Assembly (NCBI GenBank): GCA_914767715.1 | Contig: OU612065.1 | Coordinates: 24,366,001 to 24,430,000 of the forward strand | Length of the DNA stretch: 64,000 nt | Reading direction: 5' to 3' | Origin: Membranipora membranacea | Taxonomy: Eukaryota > Bryozoa > Gymnolaemata > Cheilostomatida > Membraniporidae | In this document: piece after piece, positions 8,676 to 37,000 of the stretch | Layout of the letters: each line of letters starts with the position of its first letter | Position numbering within the stretch: position 1 is the stretch's first letter | Notes under the pieces: generated by a model | Databases searched by the model: none | Seen by the model: only the letters and a program-made list of their open reading frames with translations | What the model was told of the DNA's origin: nothing | Translations under genes and position numbers: made by a program

Positions 8676-11600
8676 TTATACTTGGAGAAGTAGAGCCACG
8701 CCTCCAAGGATCCATTTAGCAGCCTTCTCTTTAGTCTTCAGGTTGAAGGTCCACACATAGGTAGGACCTCTCTGCTTGGTTTTATACACTGGACACTCGT
8801 AGATGTTTCTTGTCTCCATCCTGTCAACTGGGATGGCCTTGATGAATATGACAGGCATGGCTGGTGCAAGCTCCTTAAGTCTCGCTTCACCGATCATACC
8901 AGTCTGCGTATCCCAACGTGCACCCTCCATAAACAGACCATGGACGTAGGCACCCTCACGGGGAGGTCCACTCATGTCCTCTCGAGATTTTTTAGTTACG
9001 TCACATGATAGAGCCATCTTATCCAGGGGCCATTCGTTCTTACGGGCCATCTACAAATGGAAAACAATATCTATTAGTAGTGAAATGATAAATGCAATGA
9101 TGGAAACTCTGCTTTTTAACAGCGAAGAAAATAGGCACGCTTGTTGGATTGGAGGACGCAACATCTAAAATTATTGACCAATTACCACACGGCTCAGGTT
9201 GTAATAATTTATCCATATTACATACCTGTTGCATAATGGCAGTGAGGAAGGACTGGGGGTTGAAGAATCCAGCGAGCCACACGGCAGCAGGAAGTTGGAA
9301 GTCGCTGACCCACGTCTCCAGCTCCTTGATTCTCAGCAGCAGATCAGCGTACCACTGTGAGAGTCCAAAGAGTGAGGGATATGCTCTCTTGGCCCAAGCC
9401 TCAGGCATTCCATCGAGGTAGAGCGCATTACCCAAGTCCTCCATGTCACTGGTGATAGTAAGCTCACCCTATCAAGAGAAAAACACACTGTAATGATTCT
9501 TGCTCTTGATGAAGATGGAATTGTGGAAAACAGTGCGAAAACAAAACTACATATCACTTCACTTAATGAGGATCCGGTTCAGGATCCGAGTGAGGAATCC
9601 GTGTAGTACGGGCAGCAGCAGTATAACATATGTATGATGAGCTAAAATAATTATAGAAAAGCTCTCTACTGTTTTCTGAGCACTAAGCCTTGATAGGAAA
9701 TCTGGCTGGATATGAGGATAATGCAGACCATCTACTGCCTCATGCCACAAGATCATGCATTGTTTGGCTGTGAATTTTCTCATTTTGCAAAATTCATGTC
9801 ACACCATAGACTAAAGTACCACACCTTCTCATGTTAATACGCCCTTTTTGGCACAAACACTATGGAAACTTGTCAATACCAACACCCGTAGATCACAAGA
9901 ATAATGGAATTTTTTTTAATCATCCGTTCTAATATGGAACCATTAATCATTGCTAGAATTCGCACCTTGAGACCCAGGTCCAGCTCTTTGAGGGATCGTT
10001 TCATCTCATTGGTGAGCGTGTTCATACGCTCACACTCCTGGAAGGCTACGATCACGTACGGAGTTCTCTCCTCCGGTGGTACTTTGTTCATGATCTCCAG
10101 CATGTTGAACTCGTCAGGCAGCTTTTCGCTGATCTCATCAAGGATTGACTAAAGCAAACAGCAAATAGGAAATTAGACATAAAATTGAATAATACTATCC
10201 GCGGTAAGGGGGCATATGTTATGGTATAAACCGGTTAGTTAGAGTGAAATGGGATGAGATTGTCTTTAAAATGGGACCAACAGCAATTTTTTTAACACTT
10301 TTATTGGAAGTCTATTTCATTCCAGTAGTTCCAATAGCTGAATGTTTGCCGAATAGTGCCGATAAAAAAAGTGGAAAATGAAACAAGAGAGCTTGAGGAT
10401 GAAGATAAGTTGAAATGAAGAGAAGCTAGTATCAACAGTCTCACCTTGATCCTCTCATCCTTAGTCACACCACCACTAGCACCTGCTCCGGCCTCTCTCG
10501 GCTGCATCTCAAACACTGTTCTGAACAGGTTGTCAGAGTTGGTTGTAAGGAACTCAATCTCAGCATTAGGATGGAGACCATACAGGTATGGACTCTCCGG
10601 TGGCAGGCACTCATCAATGTAGGCGTGGTAACCCTTATAGTCTGAGTTGGGTGGTACTGGGAATCCTGGAGCCAAGTACAGCTCACCCTCCAACTGTAAG
10701 AGAAGCATAATTATTTTATAATGTAGTTTTTTTTCTAAGTGTTTATTGTCTTATAATTACAAGAATAGTAAGGTTTTTAAAGACTGACTAAAATTTACAA
10801 AGAGGCTCATCAGATAGTTCGAAACTAGAGTTATGACAGCCCCGTTCAGCACTGTAGTCCTCGACAGCAGAACTGCGCCGCCAAGAGAACAGAAGTTAAT
10901 TCATTACTTTGAAAAAAACCCTTTACCCTGATATACGCAATCAAATAGACAGTTGCACTGAATGCTGAATATTATCTAGCAATGAAGCTTAGTTTGATAA
11001 ACTGAAAATTTCTCTCAAATATTTTTCATTTCCTCCTGCCAAACTTAAACCGGGATGACAGTTGGTGGCAAGTGATCTTCTGCTGACAGGCCCTGCATCA
11101 TTGATTACGTAAGCATCGGTATCGTATTCTATTCTTAGCGCTTTGAATGGCACAGACCGCATCACGATGTAAAGCTGTTTAATTATTAGCCAATGCAGGC
11201 TTGACGGGTTGGAATGGAGAAGCGTTTTTGATTGTGCGTTGATTACCAGAAACTCAAGAAAAGATGAAATAATCCCAAATACAATGTTCTCATTAGTCGG
11301 AGATAATTGCCCAGTATTTAACAAATCTTGTTATACCAATGCTTATAATTAGGTGCCAACCATATTGCTTCAAATATAAACCTACACTTTTCAGGCCTCA
11401 TTAGCGGCAAAACAATATTTTTACACTAATGCATCTGGGTGCAAATAGAAAACGCCTAATTTCTGCCCAGCCATACTAATTGTAAACACCATTATTATAG
11501 ATGTTCATTACTTAAAACCCATATCATTAATACATTTCATCTCTTCTTCTCGCAAATTTGCGCTACCCTTTCCGAAAGTTGGCCAGGATTTTGCTATGTA

Positions 11601-14600
11601 AATTGGGTGCAAGTAAAGCTATCTCCACAACAATAACAGCGAGAAGTACAAGCTGCAAATCAATCAAACAAAATGATTACTACCAATTGATCAGCTAATT
11701 ACTTATTTATATCCCTGGACAAAGATTGCATTTTACTGAATTGTCATTTACTGTGGGAATGACTCTGACGTCACTCCCTCAATATTCTCAGGCGATGTTA
11801 ATATACTGCTGATATCCCTATTCAGTTTTTAACCTTTGTAACGGATGTGAAGTGCACCCTATATACCATACCGAGTTACATCAGGGAGTTTCGTCCCAAC
11901 CTTCCTGGTCACATAAATTAATAAAAGCATCCTGAGTTGCCTTACCAGTAGAACAGAACAGACGACTCCCAATGAATTCATGGTGAGAAGGTCACAACCA
12001 AAAGGGGTTTATAACCCAATCGGACAATTAGAGTGAAATGAATAAACGTGCTGATTTCTCGATGTTATTTATTTGTTTAAACTTGTATGTAACTTACCAT
12101 ATCTGAATGCATGTACTCCTCTAGATATGTTCTGCACAGTTTTCTATCCCAGTCATCTGTGATATGTCCACCGTACATAATCTCTCCAAACAGGTATCTC
12201 AAATCCTCCCAGGGTACCTTGGCATTAGCCTCCAGGTAGTTATACAACACCATAGCACTGATCGTCAGATCTCCGGTGTTGTATGGATACACACGATTCC
12301 ATCCTGGTGGTACAAAGGTTTATCGGTGATAAACAAAGAGCGAGATGGAAAAACTACTGCTCTTAGTTAGAAATATGTCAGACATTGGAGTATCTGTGTC
12401 TGACGCCTAGCATTTTTGTGCCAAAAGGCATTGGAAACAAGGAGTCAACAGCTACCTAATGGAATAACTGCTCTCTTACCTTGGGGACCGAACTTTCTCC
12501 TCTCACATACAACAGCATGGAAATAGCAGAGGGCGAACAGAATGGATTTGAACTCATTCTCTCTGGCACACATCTCCATAGTGTCCTGGTTAAAGTTATC
12601 CAAAGCTTTGTGCAGATTAGCCTGCATACCAGTGGGAGGCTCATTTGTGATCTTGATAGCTGACTCAAGGATACCCTGTAATCATATAAAACAGTATAAA
12701 ATATTACAACAGCTGGTCAGGCAGTGCGCCTCTAATTTCGTAAAAAAAAGATACATACAGTACAAAATTGTAATACCCGAGTTATCATACAGGGATATGT
12801 CAAAATAAATTTTAATTTTTCATTGGGGCCGACTTTGGAGAGTTTAAGGAAAACTGCATCATGGGATTTCCCTCTATAGCAAATATTAATGTACAGACAA
12901 ATGCGAATACCAATACTAATTCAATTGCTGATGATAATGCTAATACAAATGCAAATGCCAACCCTAATGCTAATGTTAATGCTAATGCTAATGAAATGTT
13001 ACCTGTGGGATGAGATGATAGGCTGGATCACCGGCTGGTTCAGCAGAGATATACACTCTGTATGACTCATGACCAGTCATACCAGACTCCTCAAGCTTCC
13101 TCTCCAGGGTGCTCAACCACTTGGCGACCAAGTGAACATTCTGTGTGGGGAATAATAGACCAATATAGTAATACCATCAAGATTTGCGAAAGAAAAGTGA
13201 GTCAATAGAAAGCTAGTAACTAAGCTAACAAGATTGATTATAACATTTTTCTCAAACCTCACTACCATAGTGTAACGAGAAAAATCTTGATTGAAGCAAG
13301 TATCAGATGATACTTCAATCAAATCAATTGAGTTAAATTAATTAAAATGTAATTTAATTCAATTCAATTAAATCAATCATACCTGCAGTACGACCCAGTG
13401 GCCTTCTTTAGACCCAAGATCCATAGCCTGTTCAGCAACGATTTCCTGTCCTTGTCCCAGTGAGATATTGATGAAGTTGTTATTGTCAAAGGTGAAGCCT
13501 AGTTTTTTACCCAAGGCTTCCACATCCTTCAGGGGGTCGACACCAGGAGACAGAATGAAGAACACAGGTGTTCCTGGGCCTGTCTCCTCATATGATTTGG
13601 CAAACTCAATAGCTCTACCTGAAACCACATAGAAATATTATTTATTACAAATAATGGCTCAGCAGAAAACAATTGTTTTAATTTGTGATTAGCTGTTGAA
13701 CACGTGAATGGTCGGCTGCAAATGGTAAAACATCAGCAATTGTGGGCTTTTTTTGGAAAAAATTGATTCTGTTTTTATGCTAAGTATGAAGTCGAGCTTT
13801 TTTTTGTAATCTGTTTCCTTCCAATGCAACACCGATTTATTTATGTTGCTACCAGTACTGGGTGTCTTGAACTTACCCTCAACGTATTTGGTTCCAAGCA
13901 TCTCTGAGACGAAGTCGGTGATGGCATAGCTCATACGATCAGGACGTAGGGCTCTCATCATGCACAACTTCTGCAGAGAAGATTTGTTCTTCCATTCCTG
14001 TGGGAACTTTTCTTTCTCAGGGCACTCAGACTCAACAAACTTCTTCCATCTTTTAGCGGATCCCTCGATGTCACGATCCAGGTTTCTAAACTCTTCCATA
14101 CCAGATAGAGCCTTGATACCTCCCCATCCATTGTGGGAGAGGAAATCTACTGGTGAGCTGACATTCTGCTGAGCTGGGAACCTCAGCAAGAAGTCCAGCT
14201 CTACTGGGTTAATAGCCTTCGATACTAATAGAATCTAAGTGAAGATACAAAACAAAATTGTAAGCTCATGCTTACATGTTCCTATTGTTACGTATTATAT
14301 TATCTATTTGGGTCAGGCTGTCCCCCCCCATCCCCGTAACTGGGCACGAGCCTAGCTACAGGATACGAATTAAGCAACATTAACTTCTCTAGCAATAAAT
14401 GGGAAGACAATTACGCATACTATGATGTATTCAATATTTTTGTTTGAACGAAATAACATCAATGTATAGCGTCTAGAAAAAATTACAATATTGCCCTTTG
14501 TAAAAGCCATGAGAGTGAGTTCATTGCATAGAGGGTCATCTCAATAAACATAATAATATAATTAATTATATAATATGATAATAATATATAGATACTTACT

Positions 14601-15956
14601 GTGAAGCACATCTGAGTGACAAAGATAAGTTTGTCTTTCTCAAACAGACCTCTGCTGGTGTAGTTAAACACAGAGAATGTGATGGAGTCGATCAGGTTAA
14701 TCACACGATTCTTCACATCTTCTGCAGCCTCAGCCTTCTCGATAGACATACCGAACACAATACTGAAAGCCTGAAATAAATGTGATATTATTTATGAAAA
14801 GAAGAATACATTTTATTTGCGATAGATGGAGATCCCCAATGGTGAAACTTGGTCTATTATTGTTATGATAACATGTTTTTATTGAGGTTTTTTATATAAT
14901 ATATAAGTATGTTATAAACAAACAAAAATAACAACTTTTGTTCAAGTCATGGCGCTTATGTTAATACACATTCAGTTATGAGGCAGAATTTATGGTGGAA
15001 AACACTGCACGATCTTGGCACGATCTGTCTTTTTGATCACTAATTCCATATAATTGCACAACAGTTACATGCAGAAGTTGGTGTTATTTTTTAAGTGCCT
15101 ACCTTGAGAGAGAACTGGTACATGGGATTGATCTTGAACAACTCGTTCAGGATGAAGTAGAGCAGAGAGGCTCGAGCAGCTGCTGGTCTGTAGTGCTCCC
15201 TGGCCTCGTTAATCTTCACTTCAGTAATCTTAGCCTGTTCTACCTTCTCTGCGATCTCAATAGCTGTAGATTTTGTTGTCTCCAGATTCTCAACCAGAGC
15301 GGTATCTCCGAGGAAATCTCCCTCTGTGAAATTAAACCGATAACATTGTAATAACAAGCATAAACGACCAACGCTGGCAAGTGCTCTGATTAGAATCTAA
15401 CCTTGCTCAATTCACACTATGAGTGAGGGATCCTTGAAAGGTATTGACAGCCACCTTCACCGGAAAGGCTTGCATATATTTATATGAATTCATGGATTAG
15501 TGATAAAATACACAGTATGGCTATTTGTGGAGAAATTACATCAATATATAACTTTGAGTCCGTAATTGGATCTAGCTAAAATTCTGGCAGCTTTACCATT
15601 ATGCATTGACTGATGTCCCAGGAACCCAGGCAAGCTACTTACAAGGGGTCGGCTGAAGGGTTACTGAACTTATGGCGATCTCGATACCATTGTTAAACAG
15701 AGAACTAAATCCATTATCATGTGCTGTTTTTCTGATGAAGAATGAATTTTCTCAAACATTGCCCTTCTGGTCGTCTTAGACATATTAAATATCGCAGCTC
15801 ATGGGGCAAAGACTGTTTTCTGAGGCAAATGTGCATCACACTTAATGAGATTCTTTTTTAAAAAGTCCATAGTTCCATACACTGGTAGCAAGCTCTTATT
15901 ATGACAAAGTATATGCATCCATTTTTCGCAACATTTAATGTTTGTGATAGCTAATA

Positions 15957-16047
<91 letters not shown>

Positions 16048-19000
16048 GAATATATATCAGTGCTTGCAAGTGTGCGCGTAATTGATTTTAGTTCTCACCT
16101 GCGGCTGACAGCCTAGCCAGCAGGTCATCCTCAAGCTTCTTCAGCACAATCTTGAACTCGTTCTGCTGTCTGGTGAGGTCTGATTTCAGCTGCTCCAGAT
16201 CTGGTCTCTCAACAGCCACCACCTGTGCCAGAAGCTGGTCTTCTAGACCATCTTTGGTAACAGTGAAGTTGATCAGGGTGGTCTGGGCCTGCATCTCAGG
16301 TTTGTAGTGAGGGTTGGCAAGCTACAATGAGGGAGAAAATCTGTAAATACTCTATATAATACATATTCTGGTTCACTAGCTACTTTCAGGACCATCTTGT
16401 CATGCTTTATTCAGAATCGATAGCGTTTGTCTTCCTTTCTGTGAAACCTGGTTAAAATGACTTCAACATTGAAGCCGTATAACATTCAATGCCTTTTCAC
16501 ATGTCTGGGAAGTGATTTTGATAAAGAGATTTAATTGGCTTCGACAGCCTTCTGTGTCATTAAATTTAGAAATCTGCAAGTAATATTTGTTCAGCTAAGA
16601 CTAGCCTGGCCGGCTTTAAGTGTCACATGCAGTTATAATTAGCAGATGTCTAAAAGTGCTAATGCTACAATATTTCCACTCGCTTTTACCAAAATAATGT
16701 CGAAATTTCTGATTTCTACACTCATCCCTGACTCATATTTATATATTTGTTGACAGGTTACAACTTGATTTGCGTCATCTCACTAACCTTGGTCTGTAAG
16801 ATGAGTTTGAAGGCTTTGTTGTACTCGACCTCCTTATCTCCCATCTTGATGTATCTTCCCTTCTTAATGAGATTACGTCCCAGAAGTGGGTCCAGTACAG
16901 GGTCAATGCTCTCCTCGATATTCTCAATAAGCACAACATCTCCAGACATTACAGCATGTTCAATTCTGTCCAGATATCCTTTAGAGCCAAGTCTGACTGT
17001 GATCAGATTTTCAGCGTATCTGGTCTTCACCCATTTGATACCCTAAAAGAGATATGGATAAGGAAATAGTGAGAGGTATGAATCTCCGAATGGGGCTGCA
17101 CTAATGAAAATTAAGATTTGGAGCAGTAAAGTATTCGCAGAAGGGAAAGCTCGCCGTTTTGCACATGAGTGAAATGGTGACATTTGTGGCTACCTAACAT
17201 TAACTACCCCTCTAGCTAAAATCAGTGCTAGCTAATATTAAATCACCTTCAAACTAGCTCAACTAAACAAGAAGAACACAGACAAGATAAAAAAAAACTA
17301 ACCTGAAGCTGAGGATCGATCATCAGTGGCCACCTCTCACAGTTACAGAGGATGGTGGCGTTCTCACTGGACATACGATCAGATGGCAGACCCTCGTTGT
17401 TCCATGAGGCAATCTGTGCATCATCAGTCAACATGGTCAGTGGATCAATTCCTGGTGTGCAGGGTATGGGTACCTACAAATTGGAAAATATTAAATCAAT
17501 GCTGTGCTTGCGGTAAAATTGCAAATGACAAAAAGCAATACGGAAACCATCGCCATAGATTAAGGTACATGTGCTTCTTGCAATAAAGGTGATTTTGCGA
17601 GCATGTCTTGCCAGTAGGGAGTGGGGGACAGAGAATAATTTCCACGGAAAAAAACAATTTCAACTGTTTAAATTTTTTTTTTCCGTGGGCGTTTCACACA
17701 CATTAAACTTATATTTAAGAAGTAGCGGCATTTGTCCTGTCATGCTTACGTGCTACATTATTAGCAAGCAGCGATATCAATATCAAGTAAAAATTCAGTG
17801 CGTTTGAATTTTTCCCATACCGAAAAAAACAATAATGCAATGCATTGCTTCCACTTTTACAAAGTGGAATGCTACCAAACACCATAAAAGCTAGCAACTA
17901 CCATAGATAAGGGATAGATCAATTCTGATCCAATTTGCCTGCATTTCCAGTCTACTGGTGAGCCGGCAGCAACTCTAAGGGGAGCAACTCCAAATGCATG
18001 CAAAGTGGATCATACTTGATCTAGATAAGGACAATATGAAAGGTTTTCTAACATTGATAACCTATTTAAATAAAGCTCTAGTTGTTTGATATGCTATGTT
18101 GGAAGTTTGTGAAATATCCAGGTTACTAAGGTAATTGGCAAGGCTGCCTTGCATAACGCTAAAGAAATGAAGAAGGGTCCTCTTTTGTTGCAGAAAACCC
18201 AAGAAAAATTAATAACAGATTTTTACGTGGTTACTATTATCGAACATAGCGTAAGCATAAATGAATGTGCCTACCCCTGTTTTATCCTGAAAGAAACACA
18301 AACAGCAAATGATTAGGGTGCATATAGCTCAACTCAAGGAGTGCAATGTAATTAAGTTTTTTGTAAGAAATTGTATTTTATTTGATGATTATGATGAACG
18401 CTGGCTAGTTCATACAGACCGCCATTCAGGTTGATTAATGGCAATCACATAGCAAAAGCTCCAAGTTAAAACGAGACCAGCCCACAGCAGAGCTTTCTTC
18501 AGGGATGTTTTTTAAGTTTCTCATATTCTGTGGATAGAGCTGTTAGTGTAACAAATTGTTTTTTCTGGTTAAAGGCCGCGATTGGTTACTTACAGAAAGC
18601 TGCTTGAGATATGGCAGCCACTGGCTATCCATCAGGTCCAGTCTGTAACTCTTGATGAAACAACCGACATAGGACACAAAGGCTGTCGTGAGTAGCACAT
18701 CTCCGGGTAGAGTGGTAGCCTGTTGTTTAAATGCCTCAACAGATTCAGCCCAACGTACATTCTCAGAGGCTAGACCTCCCACCAAGCGGTTAGCCAGGCT
18801 AAAACACCATGAGTAGAAGTGTTAAAATAAACATGTCATCAAATCAAGAATAAAGGTGCAATAATTAGACATCGGTAAACCATCTAGGGGAGCTCCCTTC
18901 TTATCCTCAAGTTGAGCCTGATTAAATTTTTTTCCAATCTTAAGAGGAATGAGGAATGAGATGCTTGCCAACAAACAAGGGTGGTTTCATGCTGCAGGGG

Positions 19001-22000
19001 CCAGCAATGAGAATGTTGTACTAGTGAAGGCCTCAAAACTGCGCTGGACTCATGTATTCCAGCTAAAGGCACTGACAATGTTGACATTATTAAGGACGTA
19101 CTTGATGGTTCTGTTGGTGTTGTCCGCCATCTCTTGACATCTTAGTTTCTCAGATGTGGCTCTTTCAAAGTCAGCAGTCAGCTTTCCAAGAGTCTCCTCA
19201 AGACTTCTGATCTTAGTCTGGATAGTATCTAGCTTACTCACGGCAGCAGCCAGATCAGCATTAGCGGCAGCAAGAGCGTTTCTCTTGGGCTCGACGTCAC
19301 AGAATACTCGGTAGAAACTGAAAAATATCATGGCAGTGAAGAGCTAGAATAGCATACTAAATAAGGGGATCTTTCAATTACAATGTGCATGCTATACTAA
19401 AGCAAACTATCACTATCACATGGCTCAAAATTATCAATCACTTGATATTTCGATTGGACAAAATCGCTCCTAATTCACTCACTCAGAATGTATTTAGTTG
19501 CATCAATGAGTGAGCGATTTCTGAGCTAGGCCCTTAGCAGATTGCAATTTTGGCTGATTTTAAGTTAAAGATTCCCCTGGCTCAGAACATCATGAAAGAA
19601 TATCAACTGTAGCACATGTTTTATGAAATGTATGACATAATATTATGAGCTTAGCTCTGAACAAATAACTTAGCATGTGAATGAAGCGAACGTAATAATA
19701 AACAGCTCAGCTACCCTACGTCTTATTCCAATTGCCCACAAAGGTTGACAGAATTATGTGTTTGGAAAAACACAGAGGAAAGATCCACTCATTTAGTTGC
19801 GGTTTTTAACAGTGCCTAAACATATCTAAGACATAATAAGATAGAGTTTGCAGGAAAAGACCACTCATTGACAATCTACCATACTATCATAGCTTTACAT
19901 TGCGTACAAAATGTCCAAATACCGTAGTAATTTTATCCTAGAACATACATAATGGTATTTGTCTACTTACGTCACAATATTGATGGCCCAGGCGCAGAGT
20001 CCAGCAGCTGCAATGGACTTAGCCTTAATAAAGTCAGGGTCGAATTCAGGGTCTAATAGAAAAGGATCTACAGCCTTGAGACACGCGTCGGGGATGTTCT
20101 CTTTGTCATAGTTTATCAGCTGGTCTAAGAAACCGTCCACCTAACACACATTATTTGATAATAACTAATTGTTTGAGCAACATAGAATAGCAGCTGGCTA
20201 ATACACACAAGTCAGATACGGGATTTCAGACCAAGTTAGGTTATAATTTTCATCTAACACGATGATCCAAATGATCCAAATGATCCAAATGATCCAAATG
20301 ATCCAAATGATCCAAATGATCCAAATGATCCAAATGATCCAAATGATCCAAATTTCATTGGCACATTTTACCCGTTATCTGACCTGTGTGGAGCTACAGC
20401 CATTAAATGAAAGGAACACTGAACTATAGTAAGCTGAAACACTGTAACACGCAGCATAGAGCTAAAAGATATAAACTGAACTATAGCTGCGAAGTAGCAA
20501 CTTCTACCACACATACAGATGTATCGGAGAGTCATCAGAGGTTGTCAGAAATTCACCAGGTATGACTTCCATAAACACTATTTTTCTTTCTTTTTTCTCA
20601 ATTTGCAAAAGTTATCATCATGGTCGGATCGTGCCGAAGAGATTAATAGTAGCAAAGAAATAATCATAGTAAATTAATTTTAATTTAATTAAGTTATCCA
20701 TGTTTTGGTGGGTGAATTGCTGACAATGCATCCGTGACCTCTGAACTCTGCTGCATGTTCCCCAGTTACTTACGCCACAATATTAATGGCCCAGGAACAA
20801 AGGCCGGCAGCAGCGATTGATTTTGCCCTGATGAATTCTGGCTCAAACTCAGGGTTACTTAAGTATGGTTCCAGGGCTTTCAGACTGGCGTCTGATATAT
20901 TTTCCTTGTCATAATTGACAAGTTGGTCTAGAAAGTCCCCGACCTGTTAATCATCGCAAATAGTCTTAAAAATTGAATTTTAAAACATTAAAATCTTGAT
21001 TTTCATGGCAAGAGATAATTGCTTCCAAAATTAATCATTAAATTATCAACAGGTTTATATAAATGCAAAAAGCTACAATAAGCTTTATCTATAATTAAAT
21101 ATTCAAAATTATTCAAGGACCCAAATGAAATTCTTACTCACCTTAGCCATCATAAGTTTGGCAGCCTTCCAACTCTTGTCCTTTGGTACCTTACCACCAG
21201 GTGCCAGTAAGCACATACAGGCCCCTAACACTGTGACGACAGCTGAAGGTGGTGACCCGAAAGATTTCAACTCAGTCAAATTACCCTGTAATATAAACAC
21301 AGATTTTTTGTCAATAAAAGCCATCATTGGGTCGAAGCTATAATCTTCTAAATAATTGGCTATATAGCTCTAAAGATGGAACATTTCTCAACGCTTACAA
21401 TAATATCATTATTACACCTTTTTAATGAGGCTTCCATAAAAGTATTATAATGATATAAAAGATACCTAACGGCAATAAACTGACAAATACTTGTTGGTGG
21501 AAAATATCCAATTTGTACTTGATTTGTAGAACGGACCTTGTTGAGTGTGTTCAGGGCTTCTTGAGCAGCAATAAGAGCAGGCTCAGCCTTAGCTAGATCA
21601 GTCTCACAAGAGATCTGCTTCTTTGTGACCTCTTCCTTGATGACGTTGACCTTCTTCTCTTCACCGTCAGCGAACTCCTTCTCCTTAGAGACTTTCTCTG
21701 TCTCAGTTCCGACAATCTGAATCAGCTTATTGGCGTCTTCGTTCTTCTGTGTAAGCTCTATCTCCTGAGCGGCAAGCTTAGCTTTCAGATCATCTACCTG
21801 TCCAGCTGCAAGTAGATAAAGTTTTGAGTATGTCAGGCAGATATTCAGAAATAAAACAGTTCAAAGGCAGATTGGCATGGTAAACAATTTCAATATATTA
21901 CTGGGCATGAATTATCAATGGTGGAAACAGTGCAAAACTTCCATAAGGGAAGGTTACTAATAGTCCCCGCCTTAAAATGTCACTATGTACAGGAAAAAAT

Positions 22001-25000
22001 CAGTAGAAAAACAAAACCAACAGTTTGACTCATACAGCATGCAGCATTAAGACAAATGGACACGGCGTTTCTGATTGGTTGAAGCAGACAAACCTGTAGA
22101 TCGGAGTTTCTCCAGACCGTTCTCAAGACGCTGCATTTTGGCGGTCAGCTCATGATTCTTGGCTGACAGGAGATTGAGGTAGAGAGCGATTTGTTCAAGG
22201 AAACTCTTAGGCGTGGTGTAATTGTATCTCTTCTCATTCTGTAGATACATTTGGGATGCGTGGTTCACAGATGTGTGGACATAAGCCATGAACTGTGAGA
22301 CGGAGTCCTTGAGCTCTTCTGGTAGATATTCACTGCTATCGATGAATCTTCTGCTCACAGACACCAAGGCATCTTGTGGCCACTCGTGGAACCAATCGAT
22401 GCTTGTACAGTTGACGACTCCAGGGAACTTTCTTCCTCGGACTCTCAATGTACTGCCGACTGGTGAGAAGCACAATACCACCTTCAACATACGCCTGACA
22501 CGCTCAATGAAGAACTTCCAGCAGGCTTCTCTCGTATCCTCAATCCCCTGTCCCTTGACCTCATTTCTGACACCGTTGATGCAGTTCTCGACATCATCAT
22601 CTGGTAGAAGGTCAGCGACCTCACCAGTGGACAGCAAGTCATTTACTAACACCAAGAACTTCTCATCTGTCACCTAAAAACCATAAGATCACCGATTGCA
22701 AACAACTCATTATACCATTCCTTTTTGGCAGTCGGACGATTGTCATTGATATGAAACCCGCGACATGATATAAGCGCAACGCCAAATTGAAGTTTCAAGG
22801 CAAAACATATGTCTATGAGTGCAATGTATGTAATTTAATCAAAGTATTATCTTGTGGGATTTCTAAATACTAAATTAGATAGAAAATATATTCACATAGC
22901 AGATGACTGCATTAATAGACCACACAATTTTGTGATGCAGAAAACAGACAATTTTATAATTATTAGCATTATTACTATTGCTAAGTCTTTTAATTCTTTG
23001 TATGAGCATACTACAGACATACCTGAGCATCTGTCATCAGGAACATACAGCCGACATTCTTCACACCAGCCTTAATGTAGAGTGCGGCCAGATCGATCTT
23101 CAGATCAGCAATACCGTATCCCTTCCTGATAGTAATCTGGAAAGGCTCCAGACCAGTGATAAACCCAGCAAGACGAGCCAGAGACTGCTTACCAGATCCT
23201 ATCAATCATAAGGTGATAAATTGTAACATTTGGTTTTTTTTCAACACTTTTATCGGCAGTCTGGAATGAAATTTCTATAGTGAATTTCAATAGTGAAATG
23301 TTTTCCAATTAGTGCCAAAAAAAGGAAAAGGAATAAACCAAAAACGTTAAAATGAATTTAAAAAAATTTAAACACAACAATACATACAACAAAATTAGCA
23401 TCCTTAGCCTTTGCTGTTTTGAAATGGCTTAGAATATTACCGCGAGTCCTTATCTTCTTCCAAAAACTCGTGCCCAAATATCAATCAACGAACAGTGGTT
23501 TTAACTTACCTCCAACACCAACGAGCAGAGCATTTCCTCTGGGAGACTCCAGGATTCTGCTGATTCTGCAGATATGCTCCATGGCATCCTCGAACAACAC
23601 CAAGTTCATGGCAGCGTTCAGCTCATTGTAGTTATCAAGCGCTTCAAGCAGCAGCTTGTTCAGTGTGGGCCAGTCAGCCACCAGCATATATTTGGGATCT
23701 CCGATACCTAGAGAGAAGAAGTTGAGGGAAATGAATACATATGCAACATTAGTTTTACACAGATCATATCAATCTCAGTTCTCATAGTTGTGCTAAAATG
23801 TGAAGTCTGTGAAACCTTGCACCCTCCCCAGTCCATCACACATGAATCATTTGCATGCATATTATAAGTCGAGGGGGCAACTCTGAATGTAGGTAAACTG
23901 GATCAATTTGTTCTAACACCATCTTACATATAACAGAATAATCACTTGACCAGCATGCAAGAATATAAATTATAGACAGTGGATCTGTGATAATCGTAGA
24001 GTCACTGAGTGTTGACTACTAGATTGCGATGGACAAGGCAGTTGATGTCATAGACTATGTATATGTCCTACATGATAAAAATTCATATTTTACAGATGTC
24101 ATGAATCATTATTAATACATACCAAATTTCAAAGAGCTTGCTGTAACAATTGTATTTATGAAAGATTTTGTGGAAGTTCAACATTGGAGACTTAGAGTTA
24201 CAAATGGCTACCACAATGCATACGTCTCAATCCGATAGCACAAGTTCGACAAACACACCCTTCAGACCTAAACTCATATATCCACTATAAACAGGTTATC
24301 GGGTTGACATTAAGAAGTATTTACCAGTAGCAAAGTGGCAGTAGATGAGTGGTGCTTTCTTGAACACATCATCAGGCTCAATATCCTCAAAGGACTTTTT
24401 GAATACATCTCGCTGAGTTTTGCGGAAGAGCTCAATGTCAGTTGTGTCCACCATCTTATCACCATAAACTCTCTGAGCCTCATGAGACCAGATGGTTAGC
24501 AGGTCAGTTGTTGTCTTTACAGACTCTACTGTACTGAACAGCACACCCTGTTGAATAGAGTTAAAACATTAAATTATACACATGAATTAATAAATTCAAT
24601 AAATATTTTTTAATTTATTTTTAAATAATAAATACTGAGTTTTTGAATTTTGCCTTGTTTAAAACATGACTTATTACTTATTGCTGACATTTCAATAGTG
24701 TAAGGGAATCAAAATATAGATTATCTTGATTCGGGCTTACAAGAACTACTCCATATTGGATTAGAATAGATCACTGGGCTTTGCAAAGAAAGAAAGATGG
24801 AGATCTGACAAACCTGGAAGATATTGGAGAGATCTCTCAAATTGAAGATGTAGTGGAACTTGATGGCTGTTGGGAGGAAGGTGGAGGTCATCTTGGAATG
24901 AAGGTCAAGGGCACCGCTGACAACGTTAGGTACAAACTTGATAACCTGCTGATTCATTCCACCTTGTTGCAGATGCTAAAATAAATCATAATCAAATTTT

Positions 25001-28000
25001 GTTACTAGGAGGCATTACTGAATAGGAAATTACTTGGAGTTGTAAAAGTGTCAATATCAAAATGCAATTTGCAATTAATTTCTAGCTTTCATTAATTTAA
25101 TTAATTTCTAGTGTTCCACATTACACATACATAAATTTGAAATAGGTGTGAGGCGAAGCCAGTGAGGAAATACTAATTTTCTTCTACATCTAGTTTTGAG
25201 TAAGATTTGTATTGTTTTCCATCGAAATCAGAGCAGATCATTCACATAACTCACCTGTGAGAGAATGCTGCAGTAGATGGTAGCCAGAGCATCACGTCCA
25301 GGGAACGAGAGAGCAAACACACAGAAATGCCTCTGTAGACGGGGGTTGATGGTGAATGAACCGGCTGTGGGGTTCATGCAGGACACATACTGAGTGTTAT
25401 GTACATCCTTCTGCGATAGTTTCTGTCGATCATACCAATGGCTGTAATCCAGATGCTGCCTGATCAGAGTATGTGGCTGTACTGTGAAGTATTTGTCAAC
25501 CTGTATAATATAACAATAGACATATAAAAACGATAAATAAATATTTTAATAATATTATACAATTAAAATTTAACATCATGGTAGTTTCCTTATTGTTGCT
25601 GTCAGTTGGTTTGAGATATAGGTTGAATCAAGGAGTAAGAAGAGTATTGAGCATGGGTTGAATGAAAGATCTTTTTGGAAATATTATTATTTAACGTTTT
25701 TTTATTATTTATGTTATTATTATTTCTATTTTTTATCTTTATTATTATTACATGAAGAATATAGGCAATCATCGATTAGAAAAAAGGGTTGATCACAATT
25801 TCTCAATTAAAAACAAACAAAATTCTTTCAGTTGTCTTACCTCAGGCATGTTCATGTCATCGATGAAGTAGACCAGTCTCTTGTTACCGGGTGGTCCGTA
25901 GTTACGTCCAGCCTTCTTCTCTAGAGGTTTCTCCAGAACCTTCTGCAACATCTCAGATGTGGTGTAAAAGTTGAAGGGTACATTGGCAATGTTGAAAGAC
26001 TCGGGCAGACCGGCGAGTTTCTCGCTCATCAGTACAGATTTACCAGAACCGGCGCTACCGACCAACATGACTGGTCGTCTCTTCTCAATCAGCAGATCCA
26101 TGAAGAATTTAGTTCTGCTAGTCTCAGCAGTGTGTACCAGGGCAGACTATAAAATAAAAATATCACTATAACAGACAAAGTTCCTTGCGAAATGTGACAT
26201 ATAATACGAACAGTAATAGCTACTGAAATGAAATTTATGCAAAGAAAATGGCAGCTATGGTGAACAACCTATATATTTGCCTCATTAGTGAAACAGCCTT
26301 GCATATTTCATTATATTCAATATTATTATCACTATTGTCCATCATTTTTTATTTGTACCATTTGCTTGCTTGACTTATTTTAGTTGTAAGCCACATCTTA
26401 TTACCTGTAGAGGAATATCAGGGTCAAGTTCGAATTTGGTCACAATCTTAGACCAGGGCTCAAACTTGTGAGTAGAGTTGTCGATGTAGTAATCGAATAC
26501 AGTGCCAGCTGAGGGGAACTTGATTGTCTTGAACTCATTGGCCCACCACTTGGTGAAGTCGACTCTGTGATCTGTGAGCTGATCCTGGAACAGGCAGGCA
26601 CCAAAAGCCCAGACACAGCAGAACACAAAGTATAACTCATACAGCTCCTTGGGACAATCCGGTGGTGTATTCTCTGCTACCAGCATTACCTGTAATCAGA
26701 TATGGAGGCTTATAGAAATACGTAGAGTGATATATATATATATATATATATATACTATTTTATTTGGCAGACAATATCATCATCTTTTCCATAACGTGCC
26801 AAATAACGTGATAAGTTTGACCAATGAACTAAACTATCTTAGTGCATTGGTCTGATGTAAAATAGAAGTTTACTCACTTTAACACTTTACACAGCAAATT
26901 TATTTTGGTATATGAGATGATCAATAATCCCTAGAATCAGTTTACTCAGCATAGAACGTGCCTATTATAACACTGATTAACACCAATGTGTATGTAAAAG
27001 GGGGGGGGGGGGGGTTTTCCAACATCAACACGGGTCATGAGTAAAAGACAGTGTGGGTTGTCATGATTGTTATTGAGAGTAATGTATAAATAATTGTTAA
27101 ATTGCTGATCACAAAACTGATATGAACAGGTGATTGCATGATATGAACAGTGTTGACCTACCTCAAGCAGATAACACAACATCTGGATGTGAGCAATCTC
27201 AGCGATGGGTGTGATCTTCTTGAATCTTAGCTTCATGATATCCAGGCATGGTGGCACATACTTCTCAAACAGAATGGTAAGGTTAGCCTTCTCTGACTGA
27301 ACCTCACGGGTGTCAATCCATGAGTTCACATATCTAAAGTGGGAAAATTATCAAGATTGAATAAATGTGATGATTGCTCATCGTTATTCTGGAAGCTTCA
27401 ACAGCATAAAACAATATTCCATTCTTAGCTATACTATCCATGATGATGATGATGGTGGCGATGATATTAACTTTATTTCAACCTTCAAAATCCCCACATG
27501 ACAATCTTGAAGGTTGAGTGACCACATAGCAAGGTGTTACCTAAAGTGTAATTATTTTTCTAAAGTGAGAAGATTAAAGGGATTAAATTTTGTTATTATG
27601 ATAGCTCATCGTTATTCTAGAAGCTCCACAAGGATAAAACAATGTTCCTAGCTATGTGGATTTAGTGACCACATAGCAAGGTGTTACCAAAAGTCCAATT
27701 AATTTTACAATTTAAACTAAGCTGTTCACACTTACGGGTTCCAGCCGAGATCCTGTGGGTTAATGTAGAGGATACCAGCACGTGACACTGTGGCCGGTGT
27801 GGCTGTCTTCAGATGTGAGATCTCAAACAGAAGTCTCATGGAGGGTGTCAGTGGGATACGCTCGTTAGAAGCCAAGGTCAGCACCTAAAGGCAGATAAAT
27901 GAAACTTTGAATAGAGGAAGAAGCAACCAAGTTCATTCAACCAGTTATTACACGCAAGAGACCTAGAGATGAAATATAATCTTCTTTCAACCTCAATATA

Positions 28001-31000
28001 TATTATTTCATCAGATTTTAAATATGCTAGACAATAATCATGATCGAATTGTGTTCTCCATGAGGAGACAAATCATATCTAAAAGAGAGCACAGAAAGGT
28101 GTCATATGTCGACATCATAAAAAAATTTATTGACGCAAGTACAATCACAGCTACTTGTACTGCTTTTACCTTGTTGTCATCCATGACAGTGTTGAGTGAC
28201 TCAATCCACATAGGATCAATATCACCATCCAGTACGATCCACTTCGGTCCGTCGTGTGTGATGTTAGCCAGATCTCTCATAATCACAGAGAACAAACCGT
28301 CCTTCCACTCACGAGTAGATGGGTTGATAACTCCAAACAGCTCGTCATTAGTGACAGCTTTGGGGTTGAGATCTTGAGCGATTGGTTTCATCTTCTGCAT
28401 CTGGTAGGTTTTGCTGAGTGTTTTCCAGACCATAGATTTACCAGTTCCGGCATTTCCAATGATGAACACGGAGTGACGCACCTACATTGTACAATAAATC
28501 CAATTGACAAATGTTCACAAAATCAGACATAATTCAAAAAATGATAAATCTGAATGCTTGTTTATGATTCTTTTTGTGGCAGATAATGCATTTTCACATA
28601 ATCATGTTATGTTGTCATATTATTTCTTTCTTTTTTCTTATCACTTTTATTGGCAGTCTATTTCATTCCAGTAGCGGAATGTTTTCCGATTAGGCCGAAA
28701 AAAAGAGGAAAAGGAAAACAATTTCAGTAGTTCACTTGTGAATGGACATACCTCAAACAATTCCTGAAGCTGTACAACTTTGAGGATGAATCCTTCCTCA
28801 GGCTGAAGCTTGAGAGCCAGAGCTCCATTTCTCAGCTCCTTCTCAAACTCCAGATTCCTCTTACGTGGCACATCGAGAGCAGGGAACAAGTCACCAATCA
28901 GACCCATGAAAATAGGTACGTCATCTGTCACAATCTTGGGTGTGTTGAAATCTCTTAGAGCTCTCATCAATACCTGAAACAAGCAGCATGATCAGTTTAC
29001 TACTTATGCCCCCTCATATCTACACTTTTCATTTGGCAAACAGTATCATCCAGAACGGATGTGTTTTATAACTTGCTAAAGAAATTGAGACAAAGATAAT
29101 TAATATCAGTGGATATTGAAATTGCACACAGTTCACAACATGAGAATACAACACAAAGCGTCCTTTTCAACAAACAAAAAAAATCAATGATTGGAGTTGC
29201 CCTCCTTGTTTTCATGTGCACATAGCACTGATTGTATGACAGACAATTTTATCTTGTTAACGACTGTACCTGGTCCTCAGGTCTGTCAGGATCACTTCTC
29301 TTCAGAGCACCAGCCACCACAAGTACAGACTTGATAGCTCTCAGACCCCAATCGTAATGGTCTTGTTTGGAGAGCAGCTCTCGGCACAATGTGTACAGAG
29401 TGATGAACTTTCTGGCAAGTAAACGGGCATCTAAGAAACCCTCAGCGACCAACATAATCTCACAAATCAGCTCAAAGTCAGGCACAACCATAGCACATGG
29501 TCTGAACAGGGCCTTAAGGTTCTCTGGCAATTCAGCACGTCCAGCATAACCTGCAAGAGGGAAACAAACAATTGATCAAAAACTGCTTTAACTGGACTGG
29601 ACATCTAACACACAGTGATTTTGAAAGACTGCATTGGATACAATACAATACAATATGATTACCTGAAGTCCTCAGGAATTGGCACCAGCAGTAAATTGGG
29701 AGTGGAAGTATTGCAATTTTCGAAGCATTGCTATTATGACGATCATAGAGAAAATAATAGGTATAAAACATCTACCCTTTGGATATTCACCAAAAGTATG
29801 GAAAATGAGTCTCTCAGTTTCAGTTCTCACATACAGTTAATGTATCATTATCATACTACTTTATCATACAAACCTGGATTCATTGTGATGAAGAGTCCGA
29901 CTGTTGGAGTAAGGTTGATGTCTTCACCAAGGAAGGAGAATCTCTTCTTCTTGTCTCTGATGGCATCCTGGATACATTTGACCTGGACAGCCACCACAGA
30001 CAGCACCTCTACGGCGATTCTGTTGAACTCATCAAAACATCCCCAAGCTCCAGACTGGGCTAGACCCTTGTAGATGTTTCCGATAGACTGTGGAACAAAA
30101 TAATCAGTGCCAATGTTATCATGCATATTGAGGGTAACATACATGGCAGCATTTTATAGTATTTTTAAATCGGATCAGAATCAGACCAGCAATTGAAATT
30201 GTCTTTCTCTGGTAATTGCTTTGCATAACTGTAGACAAGATTTACTTCCTATTATATATAGATCATTTTATTTGGCAGATAATATCATCCTGTTTTCCAT
30301 AAGAAATTAAGGCAAAAGTTGGGGAAAATTTGAGTTAACAGTAAAATGTAAAATGTCATGAGCAACATAAACTATAAGCAAATAAATCTAACCTTGTAGT
30401 CCATCTGTTCGGAGCAGTTGAACACATATACCATGATGCCAATAGCTCGTCCCAAATCTTTAGTTGTCTCTGTTTTACCAGTTCCGGCAGGCCCAGCAGG
30501 TGCTCCGCTCATTGTCAGATGGAGAGATTGTGTGAGTGTGATGTAGCACCTGTCAGTTAGTGGTGTTATGACAAGACGTGGTGTGTTACCCAGGTACTCA
30601 TATGAATACTTGAACTGGGCATCACAGATATTGGCATAACAATGCCTGCCAGTCTCATCCCACCTATGTCTTAGCTGTGACAGCCACATGAAAGCTGCAG
30701 CACTGTCAATCTACAGATGAAAAAATAACATTGTATTGTTTATGACATGTCCTGTTTATGACAAAACAGAGGGTTGGCTGCCCCTAAAGAGGGACGCAAG
30801 TTGCCCGAAGTCCTCATAATGAGAGTGTGATATATCCTAGAAAACTAGAATGCATCCTAGAGGTGAGGCCATGGAGGACCTCCTAATCTTGAGTATACAG
30901 CAGGCTGCCAGAAACTGAAACAGGCACTAATCGCCCATTGGCAGTGACACTTTGATCTTAGCCAATGTTCGATGTCATACTATCATATCATTCATATCAC

Positions 31001-34000
31001 CATATCAATTTTTTTACATTTGCAGTTCTGGTGATGTGCAGTACTGATAAATTATTCATTTTTACTCTCCAGGTTCAGAACCTTACCTTGTGAGTAATCA
31101 TCTTAGCGACAACATCTCGAGCGTGCACATCAATGGTACAGATGGTCATAATCTTCTGTCTGTCTCCCTGAGTAAGCTTAGAAATCAGCATGGAAATAAG
31201 CTGATTTAGCTGAGTGATCTGTTTCTTGTTGTAGTCTTTGAGGGCGTTCTCATAACCCTCCTCGAGTCTGGCAAAGGCAATGTTGACCTCAGTTGTCCAC
31301 CAGACCTGAGTACCACAGAGGGCCACCTGAGCAGGGAAGTCAAACAGCCAAGCCTCTCTTGGCTTCTCTTCATAAGCAACAACAGCTTCTGCGAACTCAC
31401 TTCTTACACTTTCCACCATGTCGTCAAGCAGACGATTCAGCCAAACCTCAACCTATGAGTAAATTATAACAATGCTAGATTTTATGAGGCATTGCTAGAG
31501 TGCATAATATATTCACAGGACAGTTCTGGCCATCATAGAATTTGGGTCAATTTGTATACATAATCGGAGTCCAAAGATTTTACAGGAATGCTGAGTGCCG
31601 CTTATTTTCATGGGTGAAGCTATTTCAATGACCGCAAAATAAGGTACAGAGAACACCTCAAATACAGAGAAGACCTCAAAAATAGTCATACTGATTCCAT
31701 ATGAGAATTCTGTGTGTCTGAAGCAATTCAAGTTTTCTTACCTGACCATCACAGTCACAAATATGAGCTAGGGTTACTTCTTCTCCGTCCTTACTGAACA
31801 TAGAAGTAGCGTTCTTACTGCACACCTCTCCTTTGTCATCCTTCTCAAACTCCAGGGCTGCCATGTTATCAAACAGCTTAGTCAAATGCTTAGCCACCTG
31901 CAAACAAAATATTTTGTGATCGTTATAGGCAATTTTCCCTTTTATGATACTATGAACAAGTGAACTTTATCATTCAATGTACAAAAATATTTAATATCGT
32001 TGTGAATTGAGAGGTTTCCAGAAAATCACCATTAGGCAATAAATTGAGTGAGTTCACTATGAGCTAGTGATAGCAAGAAATTATATAGAGTATATAATCT
32101 TTCTGAATAATCAGTTAATGTCAGTACAGTAGCATGATGTGAGTACAGCTATTTTCTATTACTTACAACCACAGGGTTGTTTCCATTTGATAGAATGTCG
32201 AGCAGATCAGCAGAGGATACGAAGTAGAACCTGGGGAAGGCGAGTCGCTTAGTCTCCAGGTATTCAGCCAGAGCTTTCTCACAGATACTGAGGTCAGACT
32301 GAATCTGTTCCAGTCTCTCATAGAGACGAGGTTTGTTTGTAGCCTCGACAACATTCTTTGTTCCTTCGACCTCATTGATTAGACCCTGAAAGAGACAAAT
32401 TGTTTACATTGTAAACAAGGCTTTGAGATCAACGGTCAAGCGTGTGGCAGAACTAAACACCATAACCATCTGCATCTACAGCAACCACAAATCACACTCT
32501 TTAAGATACCAGTGATATGTGATATCCAACAAATTTACCAAATTTTGATCGAGCCTTAGATGGGTGAACAAAGATCAATAGCCACAAGATATAGTTGTGA
32601 GAAAACGTAATAGAATAGACTGTATACCTTGAATGAGCTATCAATCCTGTCAAATCTGTCAGAGTCATCAGGCAGCTGTCTTCTGATATCCTCAGAGCCG
32701 ATGAAGATACTCTCTAAATGAGACCAAGTTCTCTGCACCTCAAACCAGATTGTGATAACCTGGAATCATGTAGGATATAAACTAAATTGATTTTTCCTAT
32801 TCATAAACAAATATACATATGTACTGTGAGCAGCAAAAATGATGTATACAAAACTAGGTTGACAACAGTTGTTCCTCTAGTCCCTGGACTATCTAGCTGT
32901 TCTCTTGCTTTCTATCATATATATTCTTTTTCTTTTCATCACAAGCATTCTTTTATATCTTTCCTTTCAGCAGTATAAAAAAAGAAAATAAAATGTATGT
33001 GTAGCATGAGGATATTTAAAGTCAAGCTATATACCTGATCAGCATTACTGAGCTTCTTCTGCCAGCTGCTAACTTGCTCCTGGAAGAAGGCGATATACTT
33101 GCTGGTGAGCATGTTCTGTAGTTGTACTTGATTGTCCTCAAGAGTCTCAATGAGCTCCTCAGAAGCACCCAGCAGAGTGACTTTAGTTCTCGGATGTGGG
33201 TGGTGATCAAACTCCATTGTCTTCCATGTTACATCCAGCTCTCTAAGTACCTTCTCCATACCCATCTCCTTTACGGCCTTGTCCACAATTCCTCTGACCT
33301 ATGAAAATAAAAATTAACAGTTTAGACACCATATCAAACAGGGTGGGAGACAAAAGACCTGTAACAAAATCTGCCTGTACCAAAAACACCAGACAGTATT
33401 TCAGCCTTATGAATTATAGTTGGTCATCAAGACAAGGTAAGATGACTTGACCAAATCCACATTGTAGCATTGTAGTGTCATCCAATGTGGAAAATCAAAC
33501 CACTATGGTGCCTCAGTTTTCGGAGTCTTTTAAACTCACCTCATCCTCAAACTCGTGGAGGTTGAGTGAGACCAGATCACTGAGAGTTGTGCTCTCATCC
33601 ATAGTGAACTTGACACCGGTGGCCTGCATAAGCTGCTGCCAATGTCGGTCTCTGATAGCTGGGTTCTGCAGCTCAGCGACAGCACGCAGTGATGTTATCA
33701 TGTTCTTTACAACATTTTCTACCCCGCCATATGTATCCCAAGCTCTCATCTCTTTGTCCAGTGATCTGACTTCCTACAAGATTAAAAACATTATTTTAAT
33801 ACTTCATGTGAGGGTTAAAATAAATCTTATCTTACCTTATCTAAGATAGCATTTATAAATTCGTTAAATTAGATCAGATGTACAAAGATAAACAAAAATC
33901 TTGAGTTTTATAATGAATTCAATTCAAAGCTTGAACCTTTTGGTCCCGGTCAAATCAGGGCATGCCTATAAATTATGTATATACATGAACATGGATTATT

Positions 34001-37000
34001 GTATCATTGTTCGATTAAGTGCTGAAGTAATAAAATTAAAATGCAGCAGGCTGTAATGTATACCTTAGCAAACTTCTTGCAGTCCATGTCCATCTGCTCG
34101 ACATTGATTGACTCCCAAGGAGTTGTCTTCCAGTCCTCGATAGAGCTTCTCACAAGATATACATAATCCCAAAGGATTTTCAGCATCTTAACCTCCTTTC
34201 GGCATGTCTTCAGCTGCTTGAAGTCAGGTACATTGACCTAATAACAAAGAGATCTGTACTTAGAGAACTGAACATGTTTTACATAATACCTGCAATGGAT
34301 TTCTTGTGTTGAAGTGGTATAAGCTTGTAGAATGTTGTATATCAGTAAATATTTTCAAGGAAATACAGTAGTAGGATTGAAAAAAGAGCGCAAGAGAGGA
34401 ATAAAGTGAAGTGAAATAAAGCATTGAAGATAGATTGTCAGTTTTTTGTTTGCCTACTTTTGCTGTCATCCATTCTGTACCAGAAAATGTGTGCTTTGGG
34501 TATAACACATTTGTGCTCAAAATAATATTTTGCCAATCTAAGCTAAGATTACAGCTTAAATAACCAATAAGTGGTTCCTTTAAAGAACCCTTCTCATACA
34601 TCCAAACACAGAAAAAAACTCAAGTGTGTTGAGTTTGGGACAAAAAGTTGGTGAAATTTCCTATACATAAGTCTTACCTCGACCTACACATGACACAAAA
34701 CACAAATAGTACACTCAATATAAGTCACAGTCTGTGTAATCTCTGCCAAAACCAGGTAGCACTCAGCAGTGAACCAACTAGCTAGGAGTATGCGATGTTT
34801 TGGACTTGGTTTTGTTTCAACCATAGCCACATATAATAATCTGGCTATGGTTGAAACAGATTATGAGCAACTTTTGACCATTACAACAATCAAAGTATTC
34901 GAGTTTAAAGGCCATTACAGGTCTTGTGCGCCATGATCAAATCAAACAGCGTCTTGAAAACTTCCTTATGACAGTGCATCACAATTGGACATTGTGTACT
35001 TGCTGACAAAAGAGGTCACCAACAAAAACATGCTGTCAACATTATACAGTTACATTACAGAGTATTTACAACGCTTTCACTTACCTCAAACAGGGCAGCG
35101 CTCTCATTGAGAGCAATCATCTCCTTCTCCATGGCATGTATTGTCATATGCTGTACATCGAGCTGTTCGTATGAATCAGGACACTCATAGAAGAAAGGTC
35201 CGATGGCTCTGAACTGCTCTCTGAATGTATGCTGCTGTACGTCGAAGGTAGCAGTCTTACGTCTGATGTTAGCCACCTCGTTAGTCTGTAGAGGAGCCAC
35301 TTGCTGCTTCACTGTGATAGCAATCTTCTTAGTGTTGTTCCATTGCTCAGGTAGCTCTTGCAGCTGCTGGTGAACCTGGATTAATTGATAATAATGTTTC
35401 GTTAAGACCCAATCAGACATGAATAAGAAGGAACCTGGCCTTACATACATTAAGAGATTTCTTTTTCTTGACAATTTTATTGGCAGTCATTTAATAGTGA
35501 AATGTTTTCCAAGAAGTTCCGAATAAAAGGGGAAAAGAAAACACGAATGACATCATTATGAAAATATTGTCAAATTTGATGAAGATTGAATACACCCAGC
35601 GCTGTCAAAATTGAAAGTTCTTTGCTGTTACTCCTTACACCCTTATTATATTGTAGTCTAAACTTTCCTACCTCCTCAGGCATTTCCTGGTTGTAAGTCT
35701 TGAGAAGCTCGATTGTCTCTTTGAGTGGCTCAAACATCTCATCAGTGGCTGCCTGTCTGTCTCTGACAGCGATCAGGTGACCCATACAGCCGGTCAACCC
35801 TTCATAATCTCCCTCAGCTACCTCGGTCTGCAGACCGCTATCTGTGGCCTGGATGAAGGCGCTCAAGTCCTTCAAGCTGTGAAAAGATAAATGAAATTAT
35901 TGTTAAGAGTCAGCAAAGTGAAAAGATTTGACCAACATTGTATCTATCAATGAGCAACAATGGTAGTGGTAGTCAGTGTACTATCTCATTATTGTTAATG
36001 ATAACGTGTTAACCAAATTTAGTTAATCATCCCTCTACAGAATACTGAAGCGATCATCTCACCTGTTGGTAACATGATCAATGAGATGTTGTTTGAACAT
36101 GAAGCTCCATCTCTTGATGATATTGAGAAGTGCCTGCTTGAATGGATTGGCATCAACTCTGAACCAGTTCTCAAAGATATGGACTCCCTGAATCTCCTCG
36201 ACCTCATCGTAAATCTTCTCATATGTGTCGACCTGAAGCAAAAAGAGGGAGATTATCAGCTCATTATACAAGACAGGTTGATATATATTGATAGTTGGTT
36301 GGTTGATAGGTTGATCTTACCATCAACGGCATTGACGAATCTTTAAGCTCGAGGTAAAGAGTTATTCACCTAACATCAACGAGGAGACAATTCTGCATAA
36401 TCACACATTTAACTTTCATTCATTGTTTATTTATACATGAATAAAATGTATAAAGTACAAAACAGATATTCTACTTGAAGTGGCTAATGAATTAAAAGTA
36501 TTTATTGGTTTAAATTTCCTTACCTGTTCCTTGAATTGGTCGAGAGTTGGTGGGCATTCTGGTACTCCATCCTCAGCGTGAGCCTCGATCTCCTCAGCAG
36601 TAAGTACATGGTTATACAGCAGGAACTGCCTCATGAACTCATTCCTATCATCCACCCACAAGTAGGCGTATGTATCAAATGAGTTTCTGTATTCACATGC
36701 CTTGTTCATAATACCTATAAAACGACAACCATTTATTTAGAAAACCTTAGTAACAATTCCCAACAAAGGAGAAAACGGACTTGTATGCAAAGATGTAATG
36801 AGGTAAATACGGGAAAAAATTGCATGGCAGGCTCAGATACCTTCTGTATAGCACAAAGTACAATAGATTGGGTATAATCGTAGCTAAGTATAAAATTGTA
36901 TATATGTATAATAACATAATATAGTACATAATATAATATATAATATTAGTAATTCGTATATAATATTAGTAATTCGTCTCACCTGTGACTCTCTCCATGA

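Follow-up and report, generated by a model that had tools for sequence, protein, structure and literature searches.

We found that a predicted outer-arm beta dynein heavy-chain gene of Membranipora membranacea carries two tandem exons, A and B, which very probably encode alternative versions of the tip of the motor and are likely used by mutually exclusive splicing, so that one gene would give two motors. Mutually exclusive exons are already known, including one in cytoplasmic dynein and many in myosin, and the axonemal dynein tip is an unusual and informative place for them. The features that carry the argument are collected in Table 1, where the positions are those of the window, that is, the whole stretch of 64,000 nucleotides that was analysed.

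Table 1 Features of the dynein gene around the exon pair
Feature	Position	Strand	Description
DNAH9/11/17-type axonemal dynein heavy-chain gene	8676..44654	(-)	ATG at 44654, stop ending at 8676; ~60 exons, ~4400 residues
Upstream exon	21142..21285	(-)	Ends ...MMAK, phase 0; presumably the end of coiled coil 1 and the start of the microtubule-binding domain
Exon A, 170 nt	20774..20943	(-)	First alternative for the latter half of the microtubule-binding domain
Intron A-B, 633 nt	20141..20773	(-)	GT-AG
Perfect 9-bp tandem repeat ATGATCCAA, 10.2 copies	20262..20353		Inside the A-B intron
Exon B, 170 nt	19971..20140	(-)	Second alternative for the latter half of the microtubule-binding domain
Downstream exon	19102..19317	(-)	Entered in phase 2; presumably coiled coil 2

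The layout of the pair agrees with the original prediction, which had described two tandem open exons of 170 nt bounded by GT/AG sites. Both exons are open, are entered in phase 0 and left in phase 2, and have AG acceptors and GTAAGT donors (GTAAGTAA for A and GTAAGTAG for B). The peptides are identical at 42 of the 56 codons, the same number on our recount as had been claimed, and the codon completed at the junction with the next exon is Ala for A and Thr for B. When both exons are included, the frame runs into an early stop after ...NIVAWTVS, and when both are skipped it runs into another early stop after ...LMMAKFLPSIL, while the protein continues with A alone or with B alone. In this way we reproduced both stops that had been predicted for joint inclusion and joint skipping, and also the claim that only one-at-a-time splicing yields a full protein. 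The frame is guarded by the exon length of 170 nt, which is not divisible by three. The same arrangement is common in human genes, where the exon length is not a multiple of three in 377 clusters of mutually exclusive exons (60% of 629) and joint inclusion shifts the frame just as in the A/B pair (PMC5740500).

For the splicing itself, no device that would enforce the exclusion was observed other than the frame shift. Incompatibility between U2 and U12 spliceosomes is not indicated, as all sites are GT-AG and none of the introns has a U12 signature. Docking/selector RNA pairing was also rejected as an enforcer: among the three introns, no pairing stood above 30 dinucleotide shuffles per pair, and the best duplexes (-30.1, -26.3 and -35.0 kcal/mol, with z of -0.66, 0.49 and 0.50) were no stronger than the shuffles. 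The A-B intron is 633 nt long and steric hindrance is thus not indicated either. With no intron pairing and a long A-B intron, the exclusion is supported by nothing beyond the frame. The tandem repeat inside this intron may be variable between individuals.

The splice sites of the pair had been called good in the original prediction; GT and AG are indeed present at both exons, but the word is generous, as most other sites of the gene score higher. Using a matrix trained on the same gene and counting the rank from the weakest site, the acceptors of exons A and B take ranks 8 and 3 of 59, and the donors take ranks 4 and 14 of 58. The acceptor of the downstream exon, which is not marked as alternative, is also weak (rank 2 of 59). 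Weaker A and B sites fit regulated exons, which is a modest point. We propose that the ordinary U2 spliceosome would pick one of the two exons, given GT-AG sites throughout, and that the choice may be helped by the weak splice sites together with putative regulators. Transcripts with both exons or with neither would be frameshifted and would presumably be removed by nonsense-mediated decay.

The differences between the two exons bear on whether both are coding. Exons A and B are identical at 116 of 170 nt (68%) and differ at 54, and the 53 differences that fall in the 56 whole codons are distributed over first, second and third positions as 9, 5 and 39. By the Nei-Gojobori method (NG86), 36.75 synonymous differences are found on 36.67 sites, which is saturated, and 16.25 non-synonymous differences on 131.3 sites, which gives a dN of 0.135. 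When an equal number of random changes was placed on A, none of the 5000 draws kept 42 residues (the maximum was 32), and 4173 draws contained a stop. Saturated silent sites at a dN of 0.135 indicate that the pair is old and has been maintained as protein for a long time, although the test is pairwise and would miss a copy that was lost very recently. Both copies bear the mark of protein-level constraint. Such age and constraint argue against a pseudo-exon, an allelic artefact and a recent duplication. The identity of A and B (42/56) lies within the range found between animal lineages, with a median of 38 and a 5-95% range of 32-46 among 58 non-redundant relatives. The same differences are informative about a poison exon, in which B would be coding and the addition of A would silence the protein through a premature stop followed by nonsense-mediated decay, or with the roles of A and B exchanged. 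Joint inclusion does yield an early stop, and weak sites suit regulated inclusion; however, a pure poison exon needs no protein-level constraint, yet third positions account for 39 of the 53 coding differences, and the encoded peptide is retained as a dynein tip. We regard this explanation as very unlikely, although a poison effect may accompany the pair as a by-product.

To date the duplication, exon A was placed in five ways on a fixed species tree using the 56 residues. The placement with A and B as sisters was the best, and the AU p values of the five placements (0.65, 0.62, 0.24, 0.24 and 0.17) rejected none of them, so that duplications before and after the split from Lingula both fit the 56-residue data.

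No comparable pair was found elsewhere in the gene model or beside the other dynein tip exons identified in the genome. When B was searched against the window by tblastn, A was matched at 1.3e-26, and when each of the 61 model exons was searched against the window, no other clear duplicated exon was found, the next-best non-self match having an E of 0.005 over 22 residues. A search of the 339-Mb genome with A gave 11 scored matches at exon level, namely A, B and nine others with 31-47% identity (E 7e-8 to 0.56), which we read by eye as dynein tips. None of these nine other tip exons has a tandem copy of itself within ~4 kb, and the best other match near them (E 0.006) is antisense to the exon itself. 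As the next match after A and B is only 47% identical, the search suggests that the assembly has only one DNAH9/11/17-type gene. It is extremely improbable that the assembly has set two alleles or two paralogous genes in tandem: nothing positive speaks for such an artefact, 68% nucleotide identity and saturated silent sites far exceed allelic difference, the intron flanks of A and B (100 nt on each side) show no similarity beyond 8-base words, and no second gene of this kind was found in the genome. One dynein tip-like exon lies on the contig of the pair at a distance of ~200 kb (G000:C1:24166669-24166755, loci L011 and L020; 41% over 29 residues, E 0.31), and it apparently belongs to a different heavy chain.

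The class of the gene and the place of the pair within it were examined with a gene model. Dynamic programming on codon usage and splice-site matrices gave 61 exons and 4396 residues. Alignment with 27 relatives (4 of them partial) revealed four discrepancies of at least 4 residues, of which the first was read as a wrongly split first exon that is actually one open exon, the second as an exon of ~41 amino acids missed by the model, and the third and fourth as a false 20-amino-acid exon near 18286 and a 6-amino-acid gap; the region of exons A and B is untouched by all four. For the stalk, DNAH17 and DNAH9 were the best solved relatives with exon A (7.5e-86 and 3e-81) as well as with exon B (3.6e-86 and 7.3e-84), followed for both isoforms by the 'outer dynein arm heavy chain beta' of 7kzm, which bears out the DNAH9/11/17 class that had been assigned. 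The location of the pair in the microtubule-binding region also holds, as the Pfam 'MT' microtubule-binding stalk domain (PF12777) was matched with 336.7 bits by isoform A and 340.8 bits by isoform B. In a tree of 15 full-length proteins made with a short search, the gene groups with animal 'dynein beta chain, ciliary' proteins and forms a set of three with the brachiopod Lingula and the annelid Owenia (SH-aLRT 99), whose internal order is unsettled and which is nested in a set of eight lophotrochozoans (SH-aLRT 100). The best whole-chain identity is 75% among the 120 proteins listed of 1857, and the identity to Lingula is 77% over aligned columns, so that none of these proteins is the bryozoan's own. 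We predict that the gene encodes an outer-arm beta heavy chain. The nearest named relative, a protein of Lingula anatina (P0003), is labelled isoform X2 and has two cluster members.

Comparison with relatives distinguishes the two copies more closely. We compared 137 relatives, consisting of the 120 listed of 1857 and 17 from two further searches, and from them 58 non-redundant representatives with pairwise identities of <90% over this exon. Conservation is strong in this half of the microtubule-binding domain: 20 of the 56 columns are conserved in ≥90% of the 58 relatives, and B keeps all 20 of these columns and A keeps 19. Residue 2 of the exon is Asp in all 137 fetched relatives and in exon B, and it is Gly in exon A, which has an Asp one place later; Asp at this residue is not universal, as alignment with the outer-arm beta chain of 7kzm shows Asn there. 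The closer copy is B for 39 of the 58 representatives and A for 10, with 9 ties, and for all 137 relatives the numbers are 54, 25 and 58, respectively. A and B differ at 14 of the 56 sites, and B and Lingula differ at 10. No consistently faster copy was found when the relative rates of A and B were compared over nine outgroups (changes counted on A:B were 9:3 for Lingula, 5:4 for Owenia, 2:7 for Lineus, 7:3 for Saccostrea, 5:4 for Pinctada, 8:4 for Tegillarca, 4:5 for Biomphalaria, 3:6 for Ptychodera and 6:3 for Nematostella). An A-like exon was not found in other species, with no match to A above 76% among 47 matches from 233 candidates and 16 from 202, but this absence is weak evidence, because a second full-length isoform would be concealed where database entries are clustered at 90% identity. 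Among the proteins compared, one of the butterfly Iphiclides podalirius (P0134) has a kinesin domain (PF00225) in its database entry as well as dynein domains and is perhaps a gene-model fusion.

These comparisons bear on an alternative that we consider unlikely, in which one of the two exons, A or B, would be a relic, whether decaying or simply unused, and the other copy alone would be spliced. The Gly of A where 137 of 137 relatives have Asp, together with its weak donor (rank 4 of 58), means that A could be losing function, and its acceptor is weak as well and B is the copy closer to 39 of the 58 representatives. However, saturated silent sites with a dN of 0.135 would not result if one copy had been drifting for most of the time since it arose, A has lost only one of the 20 strongly conserved columns, and the relative rates against the nine outgroups are mixed and not uniformly against A. 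Two functional tips chosen by mutually exclusive splicing remain our preferred reading of the pair.

If both tips are made, they would differ in a limited way. Nine of the 14 substitutions between A and B are conservative (BLOSUM62 >0), and the others are at positions 2, 3, 17, 20 and 29. Thirteen of the 14 are located within residues 1-39, and only Ser/Ala at position 50, plus the junction residue, comes later. A low-confidence AlphaFold2 model of exon B alone (25 rows, mean pLDDT 62.8, pTM 0.29), to be taken as a rough guide, has helices at 2-9, 18-28 and 35-55. Cryo-EM of dynein tips showed that the domain is mostly rigid on binding while H1 moves, and that H3 and H4 are further from the microtubule surface than an earlier model had placed them; its authors also cite previous work which concluded that H1, H3 and H6 must make contact (PMC6629372). 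Because the substitutions are mostly mild, we infer that a tuned difference is likelier than a new binding surface, with a direct change of microtubule contact as a less probable alternative. The two tips would probably differ mildly in the hold on the microtubule or in the transmission of binding, perhaps with the different track affinity or tubulin preference that had been suggested originally, and the A and B motors may be used in different cilia or flagella.

Compared with known systems, the pair has several distinct features. First, the cytoplasmic dynein SmDHC1 of Schistosoma mansoni also has a mutually exclusive exon, but it is cytoplasmic and not axonemal, and codons are split at each end of its exon but at the 3' end only in the A/B pair (PMC3228551). 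Second, mutually exclusive exons in arthropod muscle myosin heavy chain (relay helix and others) likewise tune the mechanical element of a motor, but several clusters are found per gene, whereas the dynein here has one pair, in the track-binding domain (PMC3228551). Two other reports come near: a skipped-exon event, whose exon is not placed, is described for Drosophila Dhc93AB (PMC13423992), and splicing patterns of human DNAH9 are correlated with YBX1 (PMC6634061). In the passages of open-licence literature that we searched, we found no mutually exclusive pair described in an axonemal dynein heavy chain or its tip. In the main text of the human survey of mutually exclusive exons, 'DNAH' is absent and 'dynein' occurs once, in a reference title (PMC5740500); the text of PMC3303723 has no dynein, and the searched passages of PMC3824068, PMC10335707, PMC11270918, PMC10886578 and PMC3583065 have no axonemal heavy-chain exon pair.

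If our reading is true, specialization of the outer-arm beta chain would be reachable by splicing instead of gene duplication. In vertebrates, DNAH9, DNAH11 and DNAH17 have roles in different cell types. These genes likewise provide several outer-arm beta versions per animal, but from separate genes; in contrast, one gene was found here, with the difference restricted to a single exon. We also propose, as a tentative and rather doubtful extension, that this one gene might build two outer-arm types through an exchange of tips by splicing, as the separate DNAH9, DNAH11 and DNAH17 genes do in vertebrates (for example, for sperm flagella and epithelial cilia), and that the A tip, without the Asp of all 137 relatives, might be a naturally occurring form that engages the microtubule differently. 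Alternative tips maintained by selection in a motor that is otherwise identical would offer a natural experiment on the relation between tip sequence and the behaviour of axonemal dynein.

Several other features of the window were observed. A dispersed element of ~85-100 bp with 70-80% pairwise identity is located in introns of the dynein gene, at 10287-10383, 23234-23333, 28627-28720 and 35458-35543, and short direct repeats (77-89% identity) are located at 27333-27706, in the intron just upstream of exon 27333-27162. On the forward strand, 56664-61745 contains open frames that resemble synaptojanin, as we take it, and of the three given to Pfam, only 59673-60086 was matched, by DUF1866 at 2.7e-11.
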